Source: Acytostelium subglobosum LB1 (lineage: Eukaryota; Evosea; Eumycetozoa; Acytosteliales; Acytosteliaceae). Taken from it: a stretch of DNA of 64,000 bases. Position 1 is the stretch's first letter. The number at the start of each line of letters is the position of its first letter. The notes beneath the pieces were generated by a model. That model did not search any database, was not told the DNA's origin, and saw only the letters and a list, made by a program, of their open reading frames with translations. Below are positions 1,266 through 32,178 of this stretch, piece by piece. The stretch spans positions 587,459 to 651,458 of the forward strand of contig NW_012236517.1 in assembly GCF_000787575.1 (NCBI RefSeq), read 5' to 3'. Made by a program: the position numbers and the translations under genes.

Positions 1266-3823
1266 ATGCCAGCCACCGCTACCAATCTAGGCTTCCCACG
1301 CATGGGAGAGAACCGTGAGTTGAAGAAATTAGTGGAGACTTATTGGGAGGGCAAGCTTGATGTCCACGAGTTGCTGGCACAGTCCAAGGAGCTGCGCGCC
1401 ATCCATTGGAAGCTCCAGCGTGATGCCGGCATCACCCTGATCCCCAGCAACGACTTCTCCTTCTACGACCAGATCCTCGACCATCTCTTGTTGTTTGGTG
1501 CCATCCCACCTCGCTACAAAGTGGTCGTTGACTCGGAGCCAGCCCTCACCGCCAAAGACGACCCAGCCATCCACGGCCTAAAGACCTACTTTGCCATGGG
1601 CCGCGGCTACCAGACTGCCAAGGCTGCCGCTGAAGCCTCGTCCTCAACCGCCGGTACCGCATTCGGTTCTGCCCACGTTGATTGTAACACCAAGATCGAC
1701 GTGAGCTCGATGGAGATGAAGAAATGGTTCGACACCAACTATCACAACATCGTGCCAGAGTTTGCCCATGACCAGCAGTTTGCCCTCGCCCCACACCCCA
1801 AGCCACTACGCGAGTACCTTGAGGCCAAGCAGTTGGGCATCGAGACCAGACCCGTCCTGCTCGGTCCACTGACATTCCTGTTGCTTGGCAAGTCCGGAGA
1901 CCATGCCACACCATACAAGACACGCTTCGACAGCATTGTCCATTTGGACAAGTTGCTGCCACTCTACGAGCAGCTCGCCCAGCAGTTGGCCGCGGCCGGT
2001 GTCCAACACATCCAATTCGATGAGCCCATCCTCTGTCTGGACTTGATCAAGGACAGTGAGGTGCACCGTGAACAGCTGCTCAAGGCTCTTGAGACCTCGT
2101 ACAACCGTATCCGCCAAGCATGCCCATCTATCAAGTTGCAGTTGACCACCTACTTTGGTGAACTCCGTGAGAACTTTGCCCTCCTCAAGACCCTGCCCAT
2201 CAACTCCCTCCACATCGACTGCGTTCGTGGTACCCACGACCAAGTCCTCAGCATTGCCAAGGACCTCCCTGCCACATGGTCGCTCTCCATTGGTATGTAT
2301 CTCATCACTCATTCAATCACGCCCATCACTCAATATCTAACTCGATCATTCATTCAATCAATCAACTAAAAGGTGTGATCGATGGAAGAAACATCTGGAA
2401 GTCCGACTACAAGGCCAAGGTGGCCATTATTAAGGAGGTCGTTGCTGTGCTTGGAAATGACCGTGTCCTCATTGGACCATCATGCTCGTTGCTCCACTCA
2501 CCACACTCGTTGAAACGTGAGGCCGGAAAGGTCCGCACTGAGGTGCTTGACTGGCTGGCCTTTGCCGTCGAGAAGTTGGACGAGATCGTGTTCCTCACCG
2601 CTGCCACCAACGCGGAGTTTGACCTGGCCAAGGACGCCAACCTCCTCGCTAAATACGAGGCCAACCAAGCCTCGATCCAACGCCGTTCAGTCTCGCCACT
2701 GATCCACAACGATGCCGTCAAGCAACGTGTTGCCAACCTCACCCCAGATATGTTCACTCGTTCGACCAAGTACCCACAGCGCCGCATCGCCCAGCGCGCC
2801 CGTCTGACCACCCTGCCCGACCTGTTCCCAACAACGACCATCGGCTCGTTCCCACAGACTCGTGAGGTTCGTCTGGCACGCAACCAACTCAAGTCTGGCA
2901 AGATGACCCAGAGTGCCTACGACGAGTTCATCAACGAGGAGACCAAGAAGTGCATCCAGTTCCAGGAGCAGTGTGGCTTGGACATCCTTGTGCACGGAGA
3001 GTTCGAGCGCACAGACATGGTCGAGTACTTTGGTGAGCACCTCGACGGCTACGTGTTCACCTCGTTCGGCTGGGTCCAGTCGTACGGCAGTCGTTGCGTC
3101 AAGCCACCCATCATCTTTGGTGATGTCTCGCGTCCACACCCCATGACCGTTGCCTACTCCACCTACGCACAGTCGCTCACCAAGCTGCCAATGAAGGGCA
3201 TGCTCACCGGTCCCGTCACCATCCTGCAATGGTCGTTCGTTCGTGATGACCAGCCCCGCTCACAGACCTGCTTCCAGATTGGTCTGGCCATCCGTGATGA
3301 GGTGCTAGACTTGGAGCGCGCAGGCATTGCCTGCATCCAGATTGACGAGGCTGCCGTTCGTGAAGGCCTGCCCCTGCGCATTGCTGACTGGGACGACTAC
3401 TTCAGATGGGCCATCGACTCGTTCTTGCTTGCTTCGTGTGGCGTGCGTGACGACACTCAGATCCACTCACACATGTGCTACAGTGACTTCAACGACATGT
3501 TCACATCGATCCAGCGCATGGATGCCGACGTGCTTACCATCGAGAACTCCAAGTCCGACCTGAAGCTGCTACGTGCCTTTGAGCAGTATGGCTATGCCAA
3601 CGAGATTGGACCAGGCCTGTACGATATCCACAGCCCAAGAATACCAACAGTTGACGAGATGTCTGAGCGTGTTCAACAGATGCTCAAGTACATCCCATTG
3701 GAGTTGATCTGGGTCAACCCAGACTGTGGACTCAAGACACGTGGATGGAATGAGACCAAGGCTGCACTTGCCAACATGGTCGAGGTTGCCAAGCAGCTGA
3801 GGGCCAAGTACCAACAAAAGTAA
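1266..3823 (+). CDS. metE: Cobalamin-independent methionine synthase (MetE)
   Basis: Transfers the methyl group of 5-methyltetrahydropteroyl-polyglutamate to homocysteine to make methionine. There are two exons, 1266-2292 and 2373-3823, joined across a GTATGT...AAAAG intron whose splice restores the conserved run G-V-I-D-G-R-N-I-W. The product is 825 aa, somewhat longer than the roughly 755 aa bacterial enzyme. The C-terminal catalytic barrel keeps the zinc ligands: His and Cys in IHSHMCYSDFND, Glu in the following TIENSKSD stretch, and Cys in NPDCGLKTRGW. The N-terminal barrel is also complete and begins with GFPRMGENRELK. The start is the first ATG, in an A-rich context. The gene ends 119 bases from the convergent vWA gene. 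Identification is secure. Confidence 0.97.
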
Positions 3824-3942: not shown

Positions 3943-6003
3943 TTAATCGGCGATTGACTTGGCAATGATCTGATCGAAGGACATGTTGTGCATCTCATCC
4001 ATGGTCAGGGTGTCGACAATGTCGAAGCGAGCACCCTGTGAGGTGAGGTAGTCATCCAATGTCTTGAGGAATGTGGTTGCGCTGCGATCACGTCCAATCT
4101 GGACGAATGATATCGAAAGATCCTCGTCGCGTGTTATCCTGTTGGCAGTGTTTATCAACAGTCTCTGTACGGCTGTGGCGTCATTTGGTGTGCCATCAGT
4201 GATCACAAGGATGGTCTCTGGTCTGTTGCCCTTGATGAAGTGGTCCTCGATGGCCTGGTTCAACACACCATAGAGATCGGTTGTGCCACTGGCACGCTCG
4301 CGCTGGAAAAGTCCATTGACAGTGTTGGCGTCGCGAACATTCTCGTACTTGGGGTGGCGAGGCGAGGGCGACGAGAAGAAGTACACAGTGATTCCATCGG
4401 CGTCGGCCTGGCAGGCGAATGGGGCAATCTTGGACACGGCGACGGCGGCCTGAGTCCAGAGGGAACCAGCCATACTGCCACTCTTGTCAATGATCAATGT
4501 GTAGTCTCTGTGCAACTTGTTCCTGACGTGATCAAAGAACTTGACGCCGGACATGCCAGCGGCACCTCCTGCCATCATTGGCGCGCCGGCCATGACAGGC
4601 GAGCAAGTCATTGGCACAGGCATTCCTGGGACTGCTGCTGGTGGTGCGCCGTATTGACCGGCCATTGGGGGTGCACCGGCGGGAGGGTACTGGCCTGGGA
4701 CTGCTGCGGGAGGCTGACCATATGGAGGGTATTGTCCTGGAGGTGCGCCAGTTGGAGGTGGGTATTGACCTGGAGGTGCGCCAGTTGGTGGTGGGTACTG
4801 GCCTGGCTGGCCTGGCATTGGGGCAGCTCCGTAGGGCTGACCGGCGGGTGGATATTGGCCTGGCTGACCTGGTGCACCGTATGGTTGGCCTGCGGGTGGT
4901 GGGTATTGACCTGGCTGGCCTGGAGCAGCACCATATGGTGGTTGTCCGGCTTGTGGTGGGTATTGACCTGGAGGTGCGCCAGTTGGTGGTGGGTACTGGC
5001 CTGGCTGACTTGGAGCAGCACCGTATGGTTGTCCGGCTGGTGGTGGATATTGACCTGGAGGTGCGCCAGTAGGTGGTGGGTATTGACCTGGCTGGCCTGG
5101 AGCAGCACCGTATGGTTGTTGTCCAGCGGGTGGTGGGTATTGTCCTGGCTGACCTGGAGTGGTTGTCGATGGAGGGTATTGACCTGCAACAGGTGGTTGG
5201 CCATATTGGCCTGGTGCGCCAGCTGCTAGTGGCTGTCCATATTGACCAGGGGCTGTAGTTGCTGGTGGCTTTCCGTATTGGCTTGATGCTGGTGGTTGAC
5301 CTGGTGCTGTGCCTGCTGGAGGGTATTGTCCTCCAGCTGGAGGCTGACCATATTGACCGGGAGCAGCAGCTGGTTGGCCATATTGACCTGGAGCGGCAGC
5401 TGGAGGCTGGCCATATTGACTTGATGCTGGTGGTTGACCTGGTGCTGCACCAGCAGGTGGTGGGTATTGTCCTGCAGCTGGAGGCTGGCCATATTGGCCT
5501 GGAGCAGCAGCTGGAGGCTGGCCATATTGGCCTGGAGCAGCTGGTGGCTGGCCATATTGACCTGGCGCACCCGCTGGTGGTTGGCCATATTGGCCGGGTT
5601 GTGGTTGTCCGTATTGTCCAGGCTGTGGTTGACCATATTGACCGGGAGCAGCTGGTGGTTGGCCATATTGACCAGCCTGTGGTTGTCCATACTGACCAGG
5701 AGCTGGCTGTCCGTATTGGCCAGGCTGTGGTTGTCCGTATTGACCGGGTGCTGGTTGTCCGTATTGGCCGGGTGCAGCAGGCTGTGGCTGGCCGTATTGG
5801 CCAGGTTGTGGCTGACCGTATTGACCGTGAGCAGCAGGTTGTTGTGGTGGGTATTGACCATATTGACCAGGTTGTTGGGGTTGTTGACCATATGCACCAT
5901 AACCTTGTGGTGGTGGGTATTGACCTGGTGGCTGCTGACCATACTGTGCTGAGCCATAGGCGGGGTAGCCTGAGCCTGTCTGCTGTGATGGGTTCTGGCT
6001 CAT
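3943..6003 (-). CDS. Prion-like Q/P/G/Y-rich protein with C-terminal vWA domain
   Basis: A single exon encodes 686 aa. Residues about 1-470 are degenerate repeats of GQYGQP and GQYPPP type, with [12 protein letters not shown] variants. Residues about 490-686 form a von Willebrand factor A domain with the MIDAS motif DKSGS near the start of its first strand and the later acidic site ITDGTPND. The vWA part suggests a metal-dependent protein-binding module. The repeats resemble the flexible tails of annexin VII-type and copine-associated proteins, so assembly or phase separation is possible but only inferred. No signal peptide or membrane segment is seen. Function is not known to me. Confidence 0.9.
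4650..5940 (-). repeat. Coding minisatellite of the vWA protein
   Basis: Imperfect tandem units of 18-36 bases encode PGQYGQP and GQYPPPAG. They are likely to vary in copy number between strains. They also produce long spurious open frames on the opposite strand. Confidence 0.85.
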
Positions 6004-12783: not shown

Positions 12784-15401
12784 TTATGTTGCCATTGGAG
12801 TTGGAAGTATTGAAGTTTGCTGCTTGATCTTACTGGGTAGCGTTAGGAAGTCACGTTGAATCCTCTCCTCCAATGCTGCCAGCTGGTCAACTCTTGTACG
12901 TAGATGCTCGGTGTGTGCCTGATAGCCAAGTGCATTGGCCTTGTCCTTGGCAAACTGTCCAAAGTTCTTGATCGAATCCTCGCCCAGACTAAAGTTATCG
13001 TCCAACTCCAGTGGTGACAGGGTCTCGGCAATGTGCTTAAAGAGCTCTGGCTCGTCGTACCATATGGCGCACCCGCCCTCCTTTGTGATCCTAGTATCAT
13101 GGCAACCTCTGCCCTTCTCGCGACAAGTGTGGAACCACACCTTCTCCTGGTGCGCTGACACAATCGAGATTGCCAGTCCTATCCTGTCCGCTCTTCCTAC
13201 TCTTCCAACTCTGTGTATATAGTCCTCAAACGAGTCTGGGAGTGTGTAGTCTGTTTGATTGATTGTTGTTAGTGTTTGATTGATTGATTGCGCCATGCCA
13301 CGCCACGCCATGCCATGCCACTAGTGACGCGTCACTACTTACTAATTACAAATGGTAAACCTTGTACATCGATTCCTCTGGCGGCCACATCAGTGCAGAT
13401 TAAGAACTTAACATCGCCTTGCTTGAACTTCTCGAGGTTCTCCTTTCTCAGCTGGGTACCCTTGTCACCGTGTAGACATACACATGAGAATTCATTCTCC
13501 AGTACACTGCGACCTCCACCGCACTCCATTAGGAAGCTCTGCAAGTTGTCACAGTCCTGTCTTGTCCTGGCAAAGATAAGTGCTTGGTCCATCTTGAATG
13601 CACGAATACACTTGACCAGCAAGTGTGGCTTCAACATCTTTACAGCCTGTGACTTCTGCTCATCAGTCTTCAGACGATCCAAGTGCTTAACATCATTGTT
13701 ATGTATGCCATCAGTGTTGTATCTATGTTGTGGTGTCCTCCAAAGTGTGTCATACTTCTCTGGATCGGCTGTTACATATGAATGAGTGATCAACTATGTT
13801 TGATTGATTGAGTAAGTTAGGTATGGGATGATTCCATGTGATCAATCATTGACTTACATCAGGTATGAAGTCCTTGCCCTTGAGGTCGACCCAGGTTGGC
13901 GTGCGTGTGATCTGTTCAGAGAAGCGAACGACATCGTTCGAGTGTAGGGTGGCGGAGAAGAAGAGGACTTGGAGGTTGGCCTTGGGTAGTCGATTGTAGA
14001 TGTAGTTGAGGATGGGCAGATGATCCTTGATGAGATGGTCGGCCTCATCCAACACAAAGAATCTGATGTGTGACAGGTCCAGCTGCTCCTCCTTGATCAA
14101 CTTCTCCAGGATGCCTGGTGTGCCCACAACAATGTCACATGCATCGCGCTTCAGATCCTTGACATTCTTCTCGCCTCCAAGACACAGCAATGCTTCAATC
14201 TTTGGATGCGTCAGGTATTTGGTAAAGTTGAGAATCGCTGAGAATGTCTGATCGGCCAACTCGCGGGTTGGTTCAATGATCAATGATAGTGGCTTCCTTA
14301 TTGTGTTGGCTGTGCTTGTTGATGATGAGTCTGATGCGGATGCGTTCTTCTTTGCTCCCTTGCCACTCTTGCCTCCTTTGCCGGCTGCGCCGGGTGCTTG
14401 CTGCTTGTTATCGGCAGGCGCTGCCGACTCCTCCTTCACGAGATCAGCCTCGCAGATTGGTTTGAAGCCCTTGAGTTGATGCTTCATTGTGGTGAAACTG
14501 AATGACATCTCGGCATTCTTGAGCAGGACGGCAGGGTAGAAGACAGTGCCCTTTGCCACACTCATCTGGAATGCCTGGCCAAAGTCCTGTCCATTCTTGG
14601 TGAAGCCGACGATACCCTCGTCAATGTCGATGTAGCAGCCGATCGTGTCGTTGTTGCCGTATGCCTGGCCATAGTTCTCAAACTTGCCCATGTGTGATCG
14701 CTTGCCCGTGCCACCATAGCCCCATGAGAACTTGTCTGTGCCAATTGATCGCGAAGCCTTCTTCATGGCCCAGCCAACACGACAGAGTCCCTCATCACGC
14801 ACTGTTGCCTCGTAATAGTATTTGCCAGATGTGATGCCCAGGTTGGTTCGACAGCCTGCCCAGTCTGGTGCACGTGACTGACACACCAAGCCATCGATTG
14901 ACATATCATTATCACGATCATTCACACTCCATGTTATAGTATTCTTATCGCTGTCACCACTATCCATTGTATCAGTCTCTGTGGCACCAATCGCTGCAGC
15001 ATCCGATGGAACCGTAGCAACATTGTTTATAAACTCATAAGTGATCTGTAAGATTGGTAATGCAAAGGCGCCTGTCTTTCCTGATCCTGTCTCTGCTGCC
15101 TACTCGTTCATTATTGTTCATCCGTGTGTGAATGCGTTAGTAAGGTGAGCTCATTGTCATGATCATCATTGAGTTGAGTACATACGGCCAAGACATCACC
15201 TCCACCCAGGATCAATGGGATGGCCTCTTGTTGAATTGGAGTTGGCAAGATCCAATCAAGTTCTTCAACGGCCTGTATAATCTCTGGCATTACGCCCAAG
15301 TCCTCAAATGCTGACTATACAATCACAATCCAGTTTATTATTAGTATTATGCACCATCCATCATTCATTCATTCAAACATTTGAGTGTACTCTCATACCA
15401 T
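12784..15401 (-). CDS. ddx1: ATP-dependent RNA helicase DDX1
   Basis: DEAD-box helicase with the SPRY insert typical of DDX1, a protein linked to tRNA ligase complexes and RNA processing. There are five coding exons on the minus strand: 15401-15399 (ATG only), 15314-15186, 15099-13858, 13793-13343 and 13250-12784, giving 763 aa (human 740). Seen in order: the Q-motif region [19 protein letters not shown]; Walker [10 protein letters not shown]; a SPRY domain of about 150 residues with GCRTNLG and [20 protein letters not shown] in [11 protein letters not shown] in FFSATLH; and [11 protein letters not shown]. Every junction keeps frame and restores conserved sequence such as V-I-N-Y-T-L-P-D. The upstream region is shared with the divergent GNAT gene. 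Confidence 0.95.
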
Positions 15402-15838: not shown

Positions 15839-16609
15839 ATGGAGTCAGTAGACCTTGTTCAAAACACAACTGTAGCAACAACAACAACAACTATTAATCA
15901 ATATGGACAAGAGATTGGTGTTGGTCTGCCAGATTGGAAGCCTGCTCAGTCACCACAGAGAATAGTGCTTGATGGTCAATATTGTAGACTTGAGCCTCTC
16001 ATCGCAGACCAGCATGCTGTTGAGCTTTATGAAGCATTCCAAGCTGGTACAAACCCCGACAAGACATGGACCTACATGGCAAACGGACCATTCAACACAT
16101 ACGAATCATACTATGATATCGTCAAGACTGTGTTTGAGGTGACCAAAGACCCAATGCACTTTGCCGTGATCGACAAGCAAACGAACAAGGCCGTGGGCAC
16201 CATCGCATTCATCCGAATCGACCCCAAGAATGGCTCGATCGAGGTGGGCTCCGTCGTCTTCTCCGCGCTGCTCAAGCGCACGCGCCAGTCGTCCGAGGCT
16301 GTGTTCCTGCTGATGAAGTACGCCTTTGACCAGCTGGGCTATCGTCGCTTCGAGTGGAAGTGCGACTCACTCAACGAGTTGTCGAGGAAGGCTGCCGACC
16401 GCTATGGATTCACGTTCGAGGGCACCTTCCGCCAGGCTATCGTCTACAAAGGTCGCAACAGAGACACCAACTGGTACTCAATCCTGGACAGTGAGTACAA
16501 CGCACGTATACGCGCTGCCTTTGTCCAATGGCTTGATCCAAACAACTTTGGAGCTGATGGCCAACAAGTTTGTCGTCTGTCTGACCTCACAAAGGCACAG
16601 CTATTGTAA
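15839..16609 (+). CDS. GNAT-family N-acetyltransferase (RimJ/RimL type)
   Basis: A single exon encodes 256 aa. The N-terminal 45 residues include a Thr-rich run. The body then follows the RimJ/RimL acetyltransferase pattern: LDGQYCRLEPL at the first strand, AVGTIAFIRIDP at the core strands, an IEVGSVVFSALLKRT stretch where acetyl-CoA normally binds, and a C-terminal RFEWKCDSLNELSRKAADRY followed by GFTFEG. The family uses acetyl-CoA to acetylate protein N-termini or small amines; the substrate here is unknown. It is convergent with TRIP4, with only 56 bases between stops. Bacterial-type relatives are common, so ancient transfer is possible but is not shown by composition. Confidence 0.9.
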   Translation: MESVDLVQNTTVATTTTTINQYGQEIGVGLPDWKPAQSPQRIVLDGQYCRLEPLIADQHAVELYEAFQAGTNPDKTWTYMANGPFNTYESYYDIVKTVFEVTKDPMHFAVIDKQTNKAVGTIAFIRIDPKNGSIEVGSVVFSALLKRTRQSSEAVFLLMKYAFDQLGYRRFEWKCDSLNELSRKAADRYGFTFEGTFRQAIVYKGRNRDTNWYSILDSEYNARIRAAFVQWLDPNNFGADGQQVCRLSDLTKAQLL

Positions 16610-16665: not shown

Positions 16666-19039
16666 TTACTTGATCAGATTGCTGAGCACATTGATAATGT
16701 CCTGCAGTTGTGTTTGGATCTCTGCCGAGTTGGGTCCAAAGTGTTCCAGGAGCATCTTGGACTTGTCGATGAGGGTGGACATGAATACGCGACCACGAGC
16801 ATCCAGTGCGGTGAACTGACCATCCAGCTGTTGTTGTTTCAGTTGTTGAAGCACGCCATTGGACAGCGCCATGATAACATCCGAGAATGCCTCGGCCAGC
16901 GACTCGTTGCCCAGCATCTCCAGCAGGTTGGCACGCAGTGTCAGCTCCTCCGAGTAGGTGGAGGGCGATTGAAGGTACTGAATGAAGGTCGTGAGGGGGA
17001 TGAGCGAGGTCATCTGGTCGAGGTAGGGCTGGCAGTCAAAGGGCGACGCGACCACGCCTGTCAGCTTGGCCGACGAGGCCTCGGGGCTGAACTGGCAGTG
17101 ATAGGGGTCGAGGTAGAGCTGGTGGTTGCGCGTGCCGTAGGGGAACTTCTCAATGGCGATCAGTTTGCGCTTGTCGAATATGTTGTGTATCTTGTTGAGA
17201 AGCTGGTCGTCCAGACGCCCGGATGGCGTGGAGAAGAGGATGTGGCATCGGTTGTTGAGGCCCTTGGAGATCTCGCGCCAATACTCAATCTGTTGTCTCG
17301 TCGGCGCCACCTTGAGGTCGATCTCAAAGAATGAAGGACAGACAAACATCTCTTTGAACTTAGCCGCGCCGCCATTGTCAAACAGTCCATTGATGAATGA
17401 TACCTGCGCTGCCGAGTAGGCCTTGGCCGTGTTTGTCTCGGCTGTGGCAGAGTTGGGCGCACATACCTGAGCGTTCAACGCTTCGTTGAAGCATGATGGC
17501 AGGATGACAGAGAACTCGCTGACGCCCACGGCGTGGTAGCTGTCCAGACGACTCCTCATCGCGGTGACTGCGCCCGGAGCGGCAAACACAAACTCCTTGG
17601 GCAGTGTGATTGCCACATTGATCGTGACGCTACGTGAGCGTGCGTACTCTACCAGCTGCTTGAGGAACTGGATGGTTTGGGTGGGCAGTGGTGTGTCCAA
17701 TGAAGCCTCGCTCGAATAGTTGTCTGGCGCCACGATAAAGTAGTTTGAGTTCTTGTTCTTCATCGCATCCATGTAGCTCTTGTACACCTCGAGTCGTGGC
17801 GTACGTCGTTGCTCGGCCTTGCCAAAGCGATACCACAGACCCTCCATGATACCCTTGAATGTCAATCGATTGGCAATGATCTCCTTGTTCTGCAGCACCA
17901 ACAAGTCCTCCTCCACACCATAATACTGTTGTACTATTGATGTATGTTTGTTCTTTTGATTCTTCTGATTATTGTTGTTGTTGTCGTTGTTGGTATCCTT
18001 GCGAACAACCTTGCCCTTGAGATGATCATTGACATAGTTGACTGATGGCTTGTCCGTTGATATGAGGTCTTCCAGTTGATTGGTGCTGTTTGAAGTGACT
18101 GACGTTGATGATGGCTTCAAGTCGAGCTTGCCGCGGATATCAACGGGCTTGGCTGCGGCGGGCAGTATCTTGCCGCCCATGATATCAATGGTGAAGCGAG
18201 ACTTCTTCTTCTCCTCCACACGCTGAAGATGCTCGCGCTCCTGGTCGGCAATAGTGGCGCGCTCCTCACTTGACAGCCACTTGTTGGTGGCGTTCGAGAA
18301 ATAATCCTCCTGATCGTCAAACACGATCGTTCTCTGTACACTGTTCTTTTGGTAGCCCAGAATGGTGTCCTTGTACTGGACGGCCGACGCCAGCTCTCTG
18401 TCCTTCTGCGACTGGAGCTGGGCGTTGGTCGTGGGATGGGGCTTGCTGAACAGGGCGGTGCCACAGAACTTGCATGGACCCTTGCCCTCCTGCTCACAGA
18501 TCACCTTGCCACAGTTCAAGCAGTTTGTTATCAGCTTGTGTCTAGTGGCTTGGCACTCACAAGGGTCACCTGGCTTGCCTGTATCAATCGATAATTCAGA
18601 GAATGCGTTTATATGCATCTTTGTCTTTGTTCCTCCAACCTTCTTTTGTACTTGTTGTTGTTGTCCTTGTGCTTGCTTCATGTTATTCCTTTGATTAGTT
18701 GAAGGTTTAGCTACTTTCTATAATGTATCGGTTAAGTTAGCAATCACATTCAATGCTCATTCAATCATTCAATCAATCAATCAATCATGTACGTACATTA
18801 CGTATACGCCTTGGTAATGAGTTGATCTTCTTTGTCAACTGCTCGATGAATGTCTTTGTCTTCTTTGAATCACCGAATAGTTCAATCAAGTATGCTTCGA
18901 TATCACTGTTGCTATCGGTGGCAAAGATGAATGTAACAATCTCATCAGGAGGGAATCCAAGCATCTTCTGTAGTTTATCATAAGTCCATTTCTCCAATGT
19001 CTCCCATGTCAATGCTTCAAGCTTTGGTTGATTGGACAT
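16666..19039 (-). CDS. trip4: TRIP4/ASC-1 homologue with C-terminal degenerate GH84-like domain
   Basis: Two exons (19039-18797 and 18717-16666, minus strand) encode 764 aa. Residues 1-80 match the N-terminal helical region of TRIP4 (Rqt4 in yeast). Residues 134-166 are the C2HC5 zinc finger with C-E-C, NCLNCGKVICEQEGKGPCK and FCG. Then comes the TRIP4-specific stretch with VFDDQEDYF, KWLSSEE and RFTIDIMGGKI. The usual ASCH domain is not seen. Residues about 366-668 instead resemble the O-GlcNAcase catalytic barrel: KGIMEGLWYR, AEQRR, NYFIVAPDNY, FVCPSFFE and LYLDPY. The position of the catalytic Asp pair reads LPSCFN, so activity is unlikely. TRIP4 acts in the ASCC/RQT complex that splits collided ribosomes. 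The zinc-finger half is certain; the GH84 reading is inference from recalled sequence. Confidence 0.9.
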
Positions 19040-19575: not shown

Positions 19576-20077
19576 ATGTATAACAACAAACAAGTTATAA
19601 TACTATTGATAGTAGTATGTTTGGTAGGGTCATCATATGGATGCCTTAGACAATCATTACGTAGGACTGCAAGTCGTTTCTCAGTAAAGGCTCAGGACAA
19701 TAACAACTTGGTAATGGACGCAACTATGGTGCCAAACTATAATTGTCTTAACCAAGGATGGTTCGAGTTGTACTGGGGTGGATCAGACGCCGCAGGCTAT
19801 CTCTGGACCAAGCACAACTGCAAGGACCAAGGTGAGAATGAATGGAGGTTTGAGAGACCAGGTTTCAGATCAGGTATGTTATATATACTTAATTATATCT
19901 TTATTTATGTTGGTCAACTACAAGTCCACTGACTCATTCATTCATTCACTCAATCACTCAATAAATCAATCAATCAATATTATAGGTTGGATGAAGTATA
20001 ATCAAGGATGTCCATTATATTATAACAACATTGAGGGTCCACTAGCTTATTGTGAATCAGCCAACTACAACTGTTAA
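19576..20077 (+). CDS. Small secreted six-cysteine protein, family member 2
   Basis: Exons 19576-19873 and 19986-20077 encode 129 aa, the same length as member 1. A signal peptide ends at about S-S-Y-G-C. The core has WGGSDAAGYLWTKHNC, GENEWRFERPGF, the split glycine before W-M-K-Y, GCP, and a terminal NYNC. The intron is phase 1 with GTATGT and TATAG ends. It is closest to member 4, sharing LWTKHNCKD and ENEWRFERPGF. It is first of three tandem copies. Function unknown. Confidence 0.9.
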
Positions 20078-30081: not shown

Positions 30082-32001
30082 TCAAAGGATGAAGGTGTTG
30101 ATCAACTGATGGGTGGGATTATCTGGCTCGGTCACGATGCATAGAGCTACACGACCATTGTCGATTGGACGTATTTGTGCCTCAAAGTTGATGTTACCAT
30201 GCATTCTTGAATCACCTAAATTATTGACTGACGTTATTTGATAGGTTTGCACATTGGGAATGGCATGCACCAGTGCTCTGATGAGATCGCGGGACAATTG
30301 TTGATTATTTGTCTCTATTGTAATGCGGACTTCACGTAGGCGATGCGCCATCTTGATTGGCTCCTTTGGTATATCTTCCAAATACTTGATCCTTGCGGTC
30401 ATTGTGACATCTTCCAACGATGCAGGGTATGGTTGGTGTTTGACAAGTGCTTCAAACCCATACAGCGCGAGGGTTTTGAGGCTGGATGGAGGCCGGATTG
30501 CATGTGAGTAGAATGGACCAACTACCAAACATTGGATTGAATCAGGAAGTACGCCAGCCTCCATCTCTTCTGCAAACTTGTTGCCAAATCCAAGATATGT
30601 GAGGGATGTTGGGAGAACACCAAGGTCAATCCTCTGATTGAATGCATGGCCCAATTTCAAGGACAATAGCGAGGTGGGCAGCACTCCATGCGCAATGATC
30701 TGTTTGTACATATGGCCAAACGTTAGGTCTATCAAGGATGAAGGTAGAGACCCATATTCCAACGTCTGATTGAACATAAATGACATCGACAATCTCTTGA
30801 GCGATGATGGTAGTACGTTGGGCGCCAAACGCTGATTGTAGCTGGTTCCAAGCTCCAGGCTTGTAATCGAGTTGGGCAGCACACCCTCGGTCAACTCTTG
30901 ATTGAATTGAACATTAAACGACAGGAATGTCAATGATAGCGGGAGGCCACCTGGAATCAGTGGTCGATCGTAGTTCCTTCCAAACGTCAGTGATTGGAGT
31001 GAGCAAGGTAGCTCGCCAGGCTGAATCGAATGATTAAAGTCATTCATGAACTTGAGTGATATGAGTGAGCTTGGTAGTTTCACTTGGCTGAGCGGCTGAT
31101 TGAATCGAACGCCAAACTCCAACTCTGTCAACGATGACGGTAGGATACCCTCCTTGAGTTGTCCATTGAACTCATAGCCAAAGCGAATGGTCTTCAATGA
31201 CCTGGGCAAAGATCCAATCTCTATAGTGTTGTTGAACTGCGCGCCAATGCCAAACCATGTCAAGGAGTCAGGAAGGGTACCACATACGATTGGGTTGTTG
31301 TCATTGTAGCCAAGAGTCAAGGTCTCAAGTCCCGAGGGGAGCATGCCAGGTGTGATGCCACCAGTGAACCCGCCTCCAAAGGTCAGGGACTTAAGTGATG
31401 ATGGAAGTACGCCAGTCTCAATCCTACGATTAAACTCTGAGCTCAGAGTAAGTGAGGTAAGGGATGGGGGCAGGGTATCGGGTGTGAGCTCTTGATTAAA
31501 GAAACCACCTAGGCTCAACTTGGTGAGTGATGACGGGAGCGTATTTGGTCGCAATGGTTGATCGAATCCTCTGCCAAAGCCGAGTGTCTGAAGTGAAGGA
31601 GGCAGTAAGCCCGGCAGTATAGGATGATCAAAGACAAAGCCAAAGTAGAGTGTAGTGAGCGACGGTGGGAGCACACCGCGTCTGAGCTCATGGTTGGTCA
31701 GTCCGTCTAGCCACAGTGTCTTGAGTGATGGTGGGAGTGAGCCAGGTTTGATCTGTGCATGGGACTCTGAGCCAAGCGTAAGAGAGATGAGTGTCGGTGA
31801 TAGTGAACCTGGTTCAATGTCATGTGAAGTCTTCCAATAACAATGACTGTCACGTTTGGTTACATTACAAGTTGTTGGTAACTTGTCCTGTATCATCATA
31901 TTGTACAATCGTGTGCATGTCAAGCTGAGTGACACAACATCCAGCGCACTGTCCAACATTGAGTATACCTCTAATAACAAAACATGTGATAGTGACTCCA
32001 T
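30082..32001 (-). CDS. F-box-like FNIP-repeat protein
   Basis: A single exon encodes 639 aa from the ATG at 32001 (an upstream in-frame ATG at 32061 is less likely). The N-terminus resembles an F-box: SHVLLLEVYSMLDSALD, then LSLTCTRLYN. About twenty FNIP-type repeats of roughly 22 residues follow, each of the form LPxSLxxLxFGxxFNQPLxxG, with N replaced by D or Y in some. FNIP repeats are a leucine-rich-repeat relative greatly expanded in dictyostelids. An F-box/FNIP protein probably selects substrates for an SCF ubiquitin ligase; the substrate is unknown. The final 120 residues lack repeats. Confidence 0.93.
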   Translation of the reverse strand: MESLSHVLLLEVYSMLDSALDVVSLSLTCTRLYNMMIQDKLPTTCNVTKRDSHCYWKTSHDIEPGSLSPTLISLTLGSESHAQIKPGSLPPSLKTLWLDGLTNHELRRGVLPPSLTTLYFGFVFDHPILPGLLPPSLQTLGFGRGFDQPLRPNTLPSSLTKLSLGGFFNQELTPDTLPPSLTSLTLSSEFNRRIETGVLPSSLKSLTFGGGFTGGITPGMLPSGLETLTLGYNDNNPIVCGTLPDSLTWFGIGAQFNNTIEIGSLPRSLKTIRFGYEFNGQLKEGILPSSLTELEFGVRFNQPLSQVKLPSSLISLKFMNDFNHSIQPGELPCSLQSLTFGRNYDRPLIPGGLPLSLTFLSFNVQFNQELTEGVLPNSITSLELGTSYNQRLAPNVLPSSLKRLSMSFMFNQTLEYGSLPSSLIDLTFGHMYKQIIAHGVLPTSLLSLKLGHAFNQRIDLGVLPTSLTYLGFGNKFAEEMEAGVLPDSIQCLVVGPFYSHAIRPPSSLKTLALYGFEALVKHQPYPASLEDVTMTARIKYLEDIPKEPIKMAHRLREVRITIETNNQQLSRDLIRALVHAIPNVQTYQITSVNNLGDSRMHGNINFEAQIRPIDNGRVALCIVTEPDNPTHQLINTFIL

Positions 32002-32178
32002 CTTTATGATTATGTGATTGATTGTGAATGGTGGTTGAATGAATGAATGATGAGTTGGCACAAAAGGAGGGCCTTTTTGATCTTTGTGTTTGGTAGGGTG
32101 AGGGCTGGAATGATTCCTGATTGAGTACCCATGTGTGTTGATTGATCGGTCAAATGTTTATTATAATATGTTATATGT

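Follow-up and report, generated by a model that had tools for sequence, protein, structure and literature searches.

Do a TRIP4 zinc finger and a sugar-hydrolase-like barrel belong to one protein in a dictyostelid amoeba, and if so, what would the barrel do there? The question is raised by positions 16666 to 19039 of a 64,000-nucleotide stretch of the Acytostelium subglobosum LB1 genome (the window). The families FNIP and CfaA_B_C, both present in the window, indicate a dictyostelid source, and the mean GC, approximately 0.45, would suit Acytostelium more than D. discoideum. The complex responsible for splitting collided ribosomes has TRIP4 among its subunits. Natural replacement of its ASCH domain by an unrelated fold would separate the mechanical part of the job from the part that involves nucleic-acid contact. 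Dictyostelids are amenable to gene knock-out.

Gene structure and the TRIP4 part

The minus strand holds a frame that is open without a break from an ATG at 18681 to a stop codon at 16666, encoding 671 residues (Table 1; residue numbers of the Acytostelium protein refer to this frame). The frame continues open 5' of the ATG to a putative splice acceptor, with the first exon base at 18717. The putative intron would retain the reading frame and join exon 1 (81 codons) to exon 2, giving a predicted protein of 764 residues, 683 of them from exon 2. The first-pass annotation had described one uninterrupted exon with a C2HC5 finger, a TRIP4 region, and a GH84 part, and Pfam bore this out with matches to zf-C2HC5 (PF06221, E 6.3e-14), TRIP4_3rd (PF23134, E 8.7e-12), and NAGidase (PF07555, E 4.6e-16). 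To that description we add the strand and the upstream exon at 18797-19039, which carries TRI4_N (PF23135, E 2.6e-15; frame 18788-19039). All four matches passed the Pfam cut-offs.

Table 1. Features of the TRIP4-GH84 gene, in window coordinates
Feature	Positions	Strand	Basis
Exon 1, TRIP4 N-terminal domain (TRI4_N, PWI-like), 81 codons	18797..19039	-	PF23135; exon end inferred from donor
Putative intron, 79 bases, GTACGT...ATTATAG, phase 0, GC 0.32	18718..18796	-	Sequence only
Exon 2 including stop codon, 683 residues	16666..18717	-	Open frame and inferred junction
C2HC5 zinc finger, residues 40-80 of the 671-residue frame	18442..18564	-	PF06221
TRIP4 third domain, residues 123-173	18163..18315	-	PF23134
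Asn/Lys-rich linker, residues 174-268	17878..18162	-	Sequence
GH84-like barrel, residues 276-599	16885..17856	-	PF07555, GH84 profile, predicted fold
Pro395-Ser396 at the catalytic Asp-Asp site	17494..17499	-	GH84 alignments
C-terminal helical stretch, residues 600-671	16669..16884	-	Position of the GH84 helical domain, without sequence signal

It is highly improbable that two genes, or the two sides of an assembly joint, have been read here as a single frame. The frame is open across the junction and includes an Asn-rich linker of dictyostelid style, and GC3 is similar on either side (0.72 in the TRIP4 part and 0.76 in the barrel), which is consistent with a single coding unit.

Comparison with solved structures by phmmer returned human TRIP4 (8alz, E 5.9e-25) and yeast Rqt4 (7zpq, E 9.5e-9), both colinear with the Acytostelium protein. 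The N-terminal domain, the C2HC5 finger, and the third domain follow one another in the same order as in human TRIP4/ASC-1, and all eight of the human zinc ligands, as listed in PMC10076317, are conserved. Rqt4 was matched at residues 165-240 (7.2e-6) and more weakly at 318-391 (0.042 taken alone), with no phmmer match beyond these two stretches, which contain the segments docked on Slh1, 171-219 and 323-381 (PMC9938168). Papers on Rqt4, PMC9938168 among them, describe a domain resembling a winged helix and numerous disordered regions. The Pfam domains, the phmmer matches, and the zinc ligands support the earlier identification of the gene as TRIP4, here read as the TRIP4 (ASC-1, Rqt4) orthologue of a dictyostelid amoeba.

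Conservation of the docking parts suggests that the N-terminal domain, the finger, and the third domain most likely anchor the protein to the ASCC3/Slh1 helicase, in line with its human and yeast counterparts. The human finger is by itself enough for stable ASCC3 binding in vitro, and the human lasso peptide and ASCH domain make further docking contacts and are required for stimulation of the ASCC3 helicase, with ASCH located at the nucleic-acid exit of ASCC3 (PMC10076317). Unlike human TRIP4, the Acytostelium protein has neither an ASCH match nor a recognized lasso, and a GH84-family barrel is found there instead. The absence of ASCH had been claimed in the first-pass annotation and agrees with the Pfam search, which listed four families for this frame at E up to 1, none of them ASCH. 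Downstream, a convergent GNAT frame ends at 16609, and the 56 bases between it and the TRIP4-GH84 stop codon leave scant space for an ASCH exon. Beyond the 5' end of the gene, the nearest plus-strand frame listed starts at 19576. A search with linker residues 158-277, aimed at the lasso peptide of human TRIP4, gave 11 PDB sequences at E up to 10, none of them named TRIP4. With a lasso-like stretch thus unrecognized, docking of the C-terminal half in the manner of human TRIP4 lacks sequence support. The term "ASCH" is not mentioned in the main texts of two papers on yeast Rqt4, PMC9938168 among them, and ASCH in its human form may not be family-defining for TRIP4/Rqt4.

Homology and predicted fold of the C-terminal barrel

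The NAGidase match scored 59.4 bits (cut-off 25) and covered residues 301-599 and profile positions 18-290 of 295. In the phmmer comparison with solved structures, the whole frame matched the O-GlcNAcases TtOGA (5diy, 6.7e-8) and human OGA (9ba8, 3.7e-4), and the C-terminal 406 residues alone matched TtOGA at 3.3e-8. The motifs quoted in the first-pass annotation (GIMEGLWYR, AEQRR, NYFIVAPDNY, LPSCFN, FVCPSFFE, and LYLDPY) were found in the order given there.

A GH84 profile was built from 80 prokaryotic proteins, excluding the protein of the window. A contig scan with TtOGA and human OGA gave at least 592 pattern matches, 562 of which encode a relative, and the best 80 were used. Because these rows were selected via the motifs EGFYG[KR]PW and N[AT]Y[IL]YAPK, conservation at both motifs, to which the pocket Lys and Gly67 belong, in part reflects the selection itself; the catalytic Asp pair falls outside both. 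On this profile the C-terminal part scored 61.8 bits and the whole frame 59.9 bits, against 3.4 bits for the best of 2000 shuffles; the reversed copy was outside the five best scores listed. The whole-frame alignment spans profile positions 1-292 of 293. These profile statistics show the C-terminal half to be a GH84-family barrel by descent, as the first-pass annotation had proposed from its motifs. Identity to the 80 rows is 15-24 percent, and the barrel retains 16 of the 44 columns conserved in at least 72 of them. The stretch that follows the barrel scored 0.8 bits against an extended GH84 profile and has no signal of its own.

Two further candidates were rejected. Glyco_hydro_97 (E 0.0088; 15.9 bits vs a cut-off of 32.5) overlaps the NAGidase match and reflects a general likeness among barrels. 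NCBIfam gave a single match, to an unrelated family and far under its cut-off.

The structure prediction proposed in the first-pass annotation was made with and without the GH84 rows. With the 80 GH84 rows, AlphaFold2 modeled the 406 residues at pLDDT 80.5 and pTM 0.81, and Foldseek placed TtOGA (5diy) first (E 1.8e-16, TM 0.73); without the rows, the protein alone gave an uninformative model (pLDDT 43.6, pTM 0.31). The GH84 rows aid the prediction, and the model does not prove the fold independently of them. Among the best 50 of 393 PDB matches to it (E up to 0.001), the titles name O-GlcNAcase, OGA, O-GlcNAc hydrolase, GH84, or an inhibitor, except those of 5tke and 4ur9 (two rows each), which give just hydrolase or glycosylhydrolase.

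In a tree of the barrel built together with the 80 prokaryotic rows, TtOGA, and human OGA, the end branch of the barrel measured 9.9 changes per column, so its origin cannot be placed within the GH84 tree. A branch of this length would fit a fusion confined to a single lineage and drifting without a function of its own, which we nevertheless regard as very unlikely: the frame has stayed open over 671 codons with even GC3, and the 16 near-invariant columns persist.

The same tree paired a GH84 protein of a Verrucomicrobiales MAG (L072, 2501-3379) with human OGA at 100/100 support, with one animal OGA in the tree. This pairing may offer a clue to where animal OGA came from.

The architecture found no match by tblastn (E up to 0.01) in phage and plasmid collections, which are not eukaryote collections. 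Viral contigs, likewise not a eukaryote collection, gave 23 pattern matches for the whole frame, 51 for the TRIP4 part, and 18 for the barrel part, none of which was a relative. A protein joining TRIP4 to GH84 is described in none of the titles and abstract openings among the literature matches listed.

Active site and possible role of the barrel

In human OGA, D174 assists catalysis and D175 is the acid/base, and GlcNAc is contacted by D174, N280, K98, G67, N313, and D285 (PMC10636738). When aligned with human OGA, the barrel has Pro395 in place of D174, Ser396 in place of D175, Lys512 in place of N280, and Ser546 in place of N313. K98 falls in a gap, and the strand expected to carry it, NYFIVAPDNYSSE, has no Lys; D285 is aligned with a gap, or with Thr in the larger alignment. 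Only G67 is retained, as Gly281, so that one of the seven catalytic or GlcNAc-contact residues is kept. Tyr219 and Trp278 of human OGA, which we take to be pocket residues, are replaced by Phe452 and Ile510. All 80 prokaryotic rows have the Asp-Asp pair, which is missing from the barrel. Given the loss of the Asp pair and of most pocket residues, with 16 of the 44 conserved columns kept, the barrel has very probably lost its enzyme function and become a pseudoenzyme, in agreement with the first-pass annotation. The GlcNAc site is also lost, as the alignment shows.

An active enzyme, with its catalytic residues relocated or with another substrate, would fit the intact profile length of the barrel, but it is most improbable because the pocket has lost its Asp pair along with its Lys, Asn, Asp, and Trp. 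Relative to the GH84 O-GlcNAcases (TtOGA, human OGA, CpOGA, and BtGH84), the Acytostelium protein shares the entire barrel by profile and a fold predicted with the GH84 rows, whereas it differs in its missing Asp pair, its loss of most pocket residues, its 15-24 percent identity to the prokaryotic rows, and its fusion to TRIP4. Trichoplax TaOGA53 is a similar case in that it is a eukaryotic GH84 protein whose authors suggest that it may be inactive and have a regulatory or scaffolding role; unlike the Acytostelium protein, it is a paralogue of animal OGA with a hydrolase domain over 50 percent identical to that of human OGA and has no TRIP4 part (PMC4424335).

Could the barrel still read a sugar? 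Without hydrolysis it might bind a nucleocytoplasmic glycan (O-fucose or O-GlcNAc) carried by ribosomal or nascent proteins, thereby steering the ribosome-splitting complex. Its GH84 descent favors this, as does the nucleocytoplasmic O-fucose made by Spy that is reported for Dictyostelium in PMC11853108. We nonetheless consider such a role unlikely, because K98, N280, D285, and N313 are altered or missing and O-fucose binding has no positive evidence. The recognition of O-GlcNAc suggested in the first-pass annotation is weakened in particular: residues that hold GlcNAc are lost besides the catalytic ones, the nucleocytoplasmic sugar reported for Dictyostelium is O-fucose (PMC11853108), and OGA is described as absent from protists in PMC4424335. 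If the barrel does read a sugar, O-fucose would for that reason be likelier than O-GlcNAc, being the mark already reported in the nucleus and cytoplasm of Dictyostelium. The broader proposal, that the complex splitting collided ribosomes in dictyostelids swapped ASCH for a pseudoglycosidase sensing a nucleocytoplasmic sugar (O-fucose rather than O-GlcNAc), is in our judgment quite improbable; were it true, ribosome rescue would be linked to nutrient-dependent glycosylation.

It is rather unlikely that the barrel is a nucleic-acid-binding replacement for ASCH that contacts the mRNA exiting the helicase. The barrel does sit at the place of ASCH, which in human TRIP4 lies at the nucleic-acid exit described above, but it is neutral, with 32 basic and 32 acidic residues and a pI of 6.9. 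This overall charge, taken over the whole barrel, gives no hint toward RNA binding. GH84 proteins are not known to bind nucleic acids. The recognition of RNA ends, also suggested in the first-pass annotation, finds no positive support in these figures.

We favor a different reading, which we hold to be probable: the protein is the TRIP4 orthologue of a dictyostelid, and a pseudoenzyme of GH84 descent has taken the position of ASCH, where it serves for scaffolding or docking and not for catalysis. The conserved TRIP4 domains would present the barrel near the usual ASCH site, and its fold would most likely have been retained to bind partners or to act as a scaffold, either on the helicase or on the ribosome. 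The barrel would then substitute for the mechanical share of the ASCH job and would not read sugars. Just two observations point to the scaffold role, namely, the lost pocket and the location within the protein. The match to Rqt4 318-391, weak by itself, slightly lowers our confidence in this explanation. We conclude that the protein is a TRIP4 variant bearing a GH84-derived pseudoenzyme domain; the first-pass annotation read its anatomy and catalytic loss correctly and was weak on its function.

Other genes in the window

Several other frames in the window were recorded. A cobalamin-independent methionine synthase is encoded on the plus strand at 1266-3823 in two overlapping frames, and the stretch between the frames, up to a stop codon at 2367-2369, resembles an ordinary intron. 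On the minus strand, a 686-residue frame at 3943-6003 terminates in a TerF-like von Willebrand A domain, and the frame at 13846-14967 combines SPRY and DEAD-box helicase domains, a pair reminiscent of DDX1. An FNIP-repeat protein with 13 stretches is encoded at 30082-32061, also on the minus strand; we take proteins of this kind to be typical of dictyostelids.
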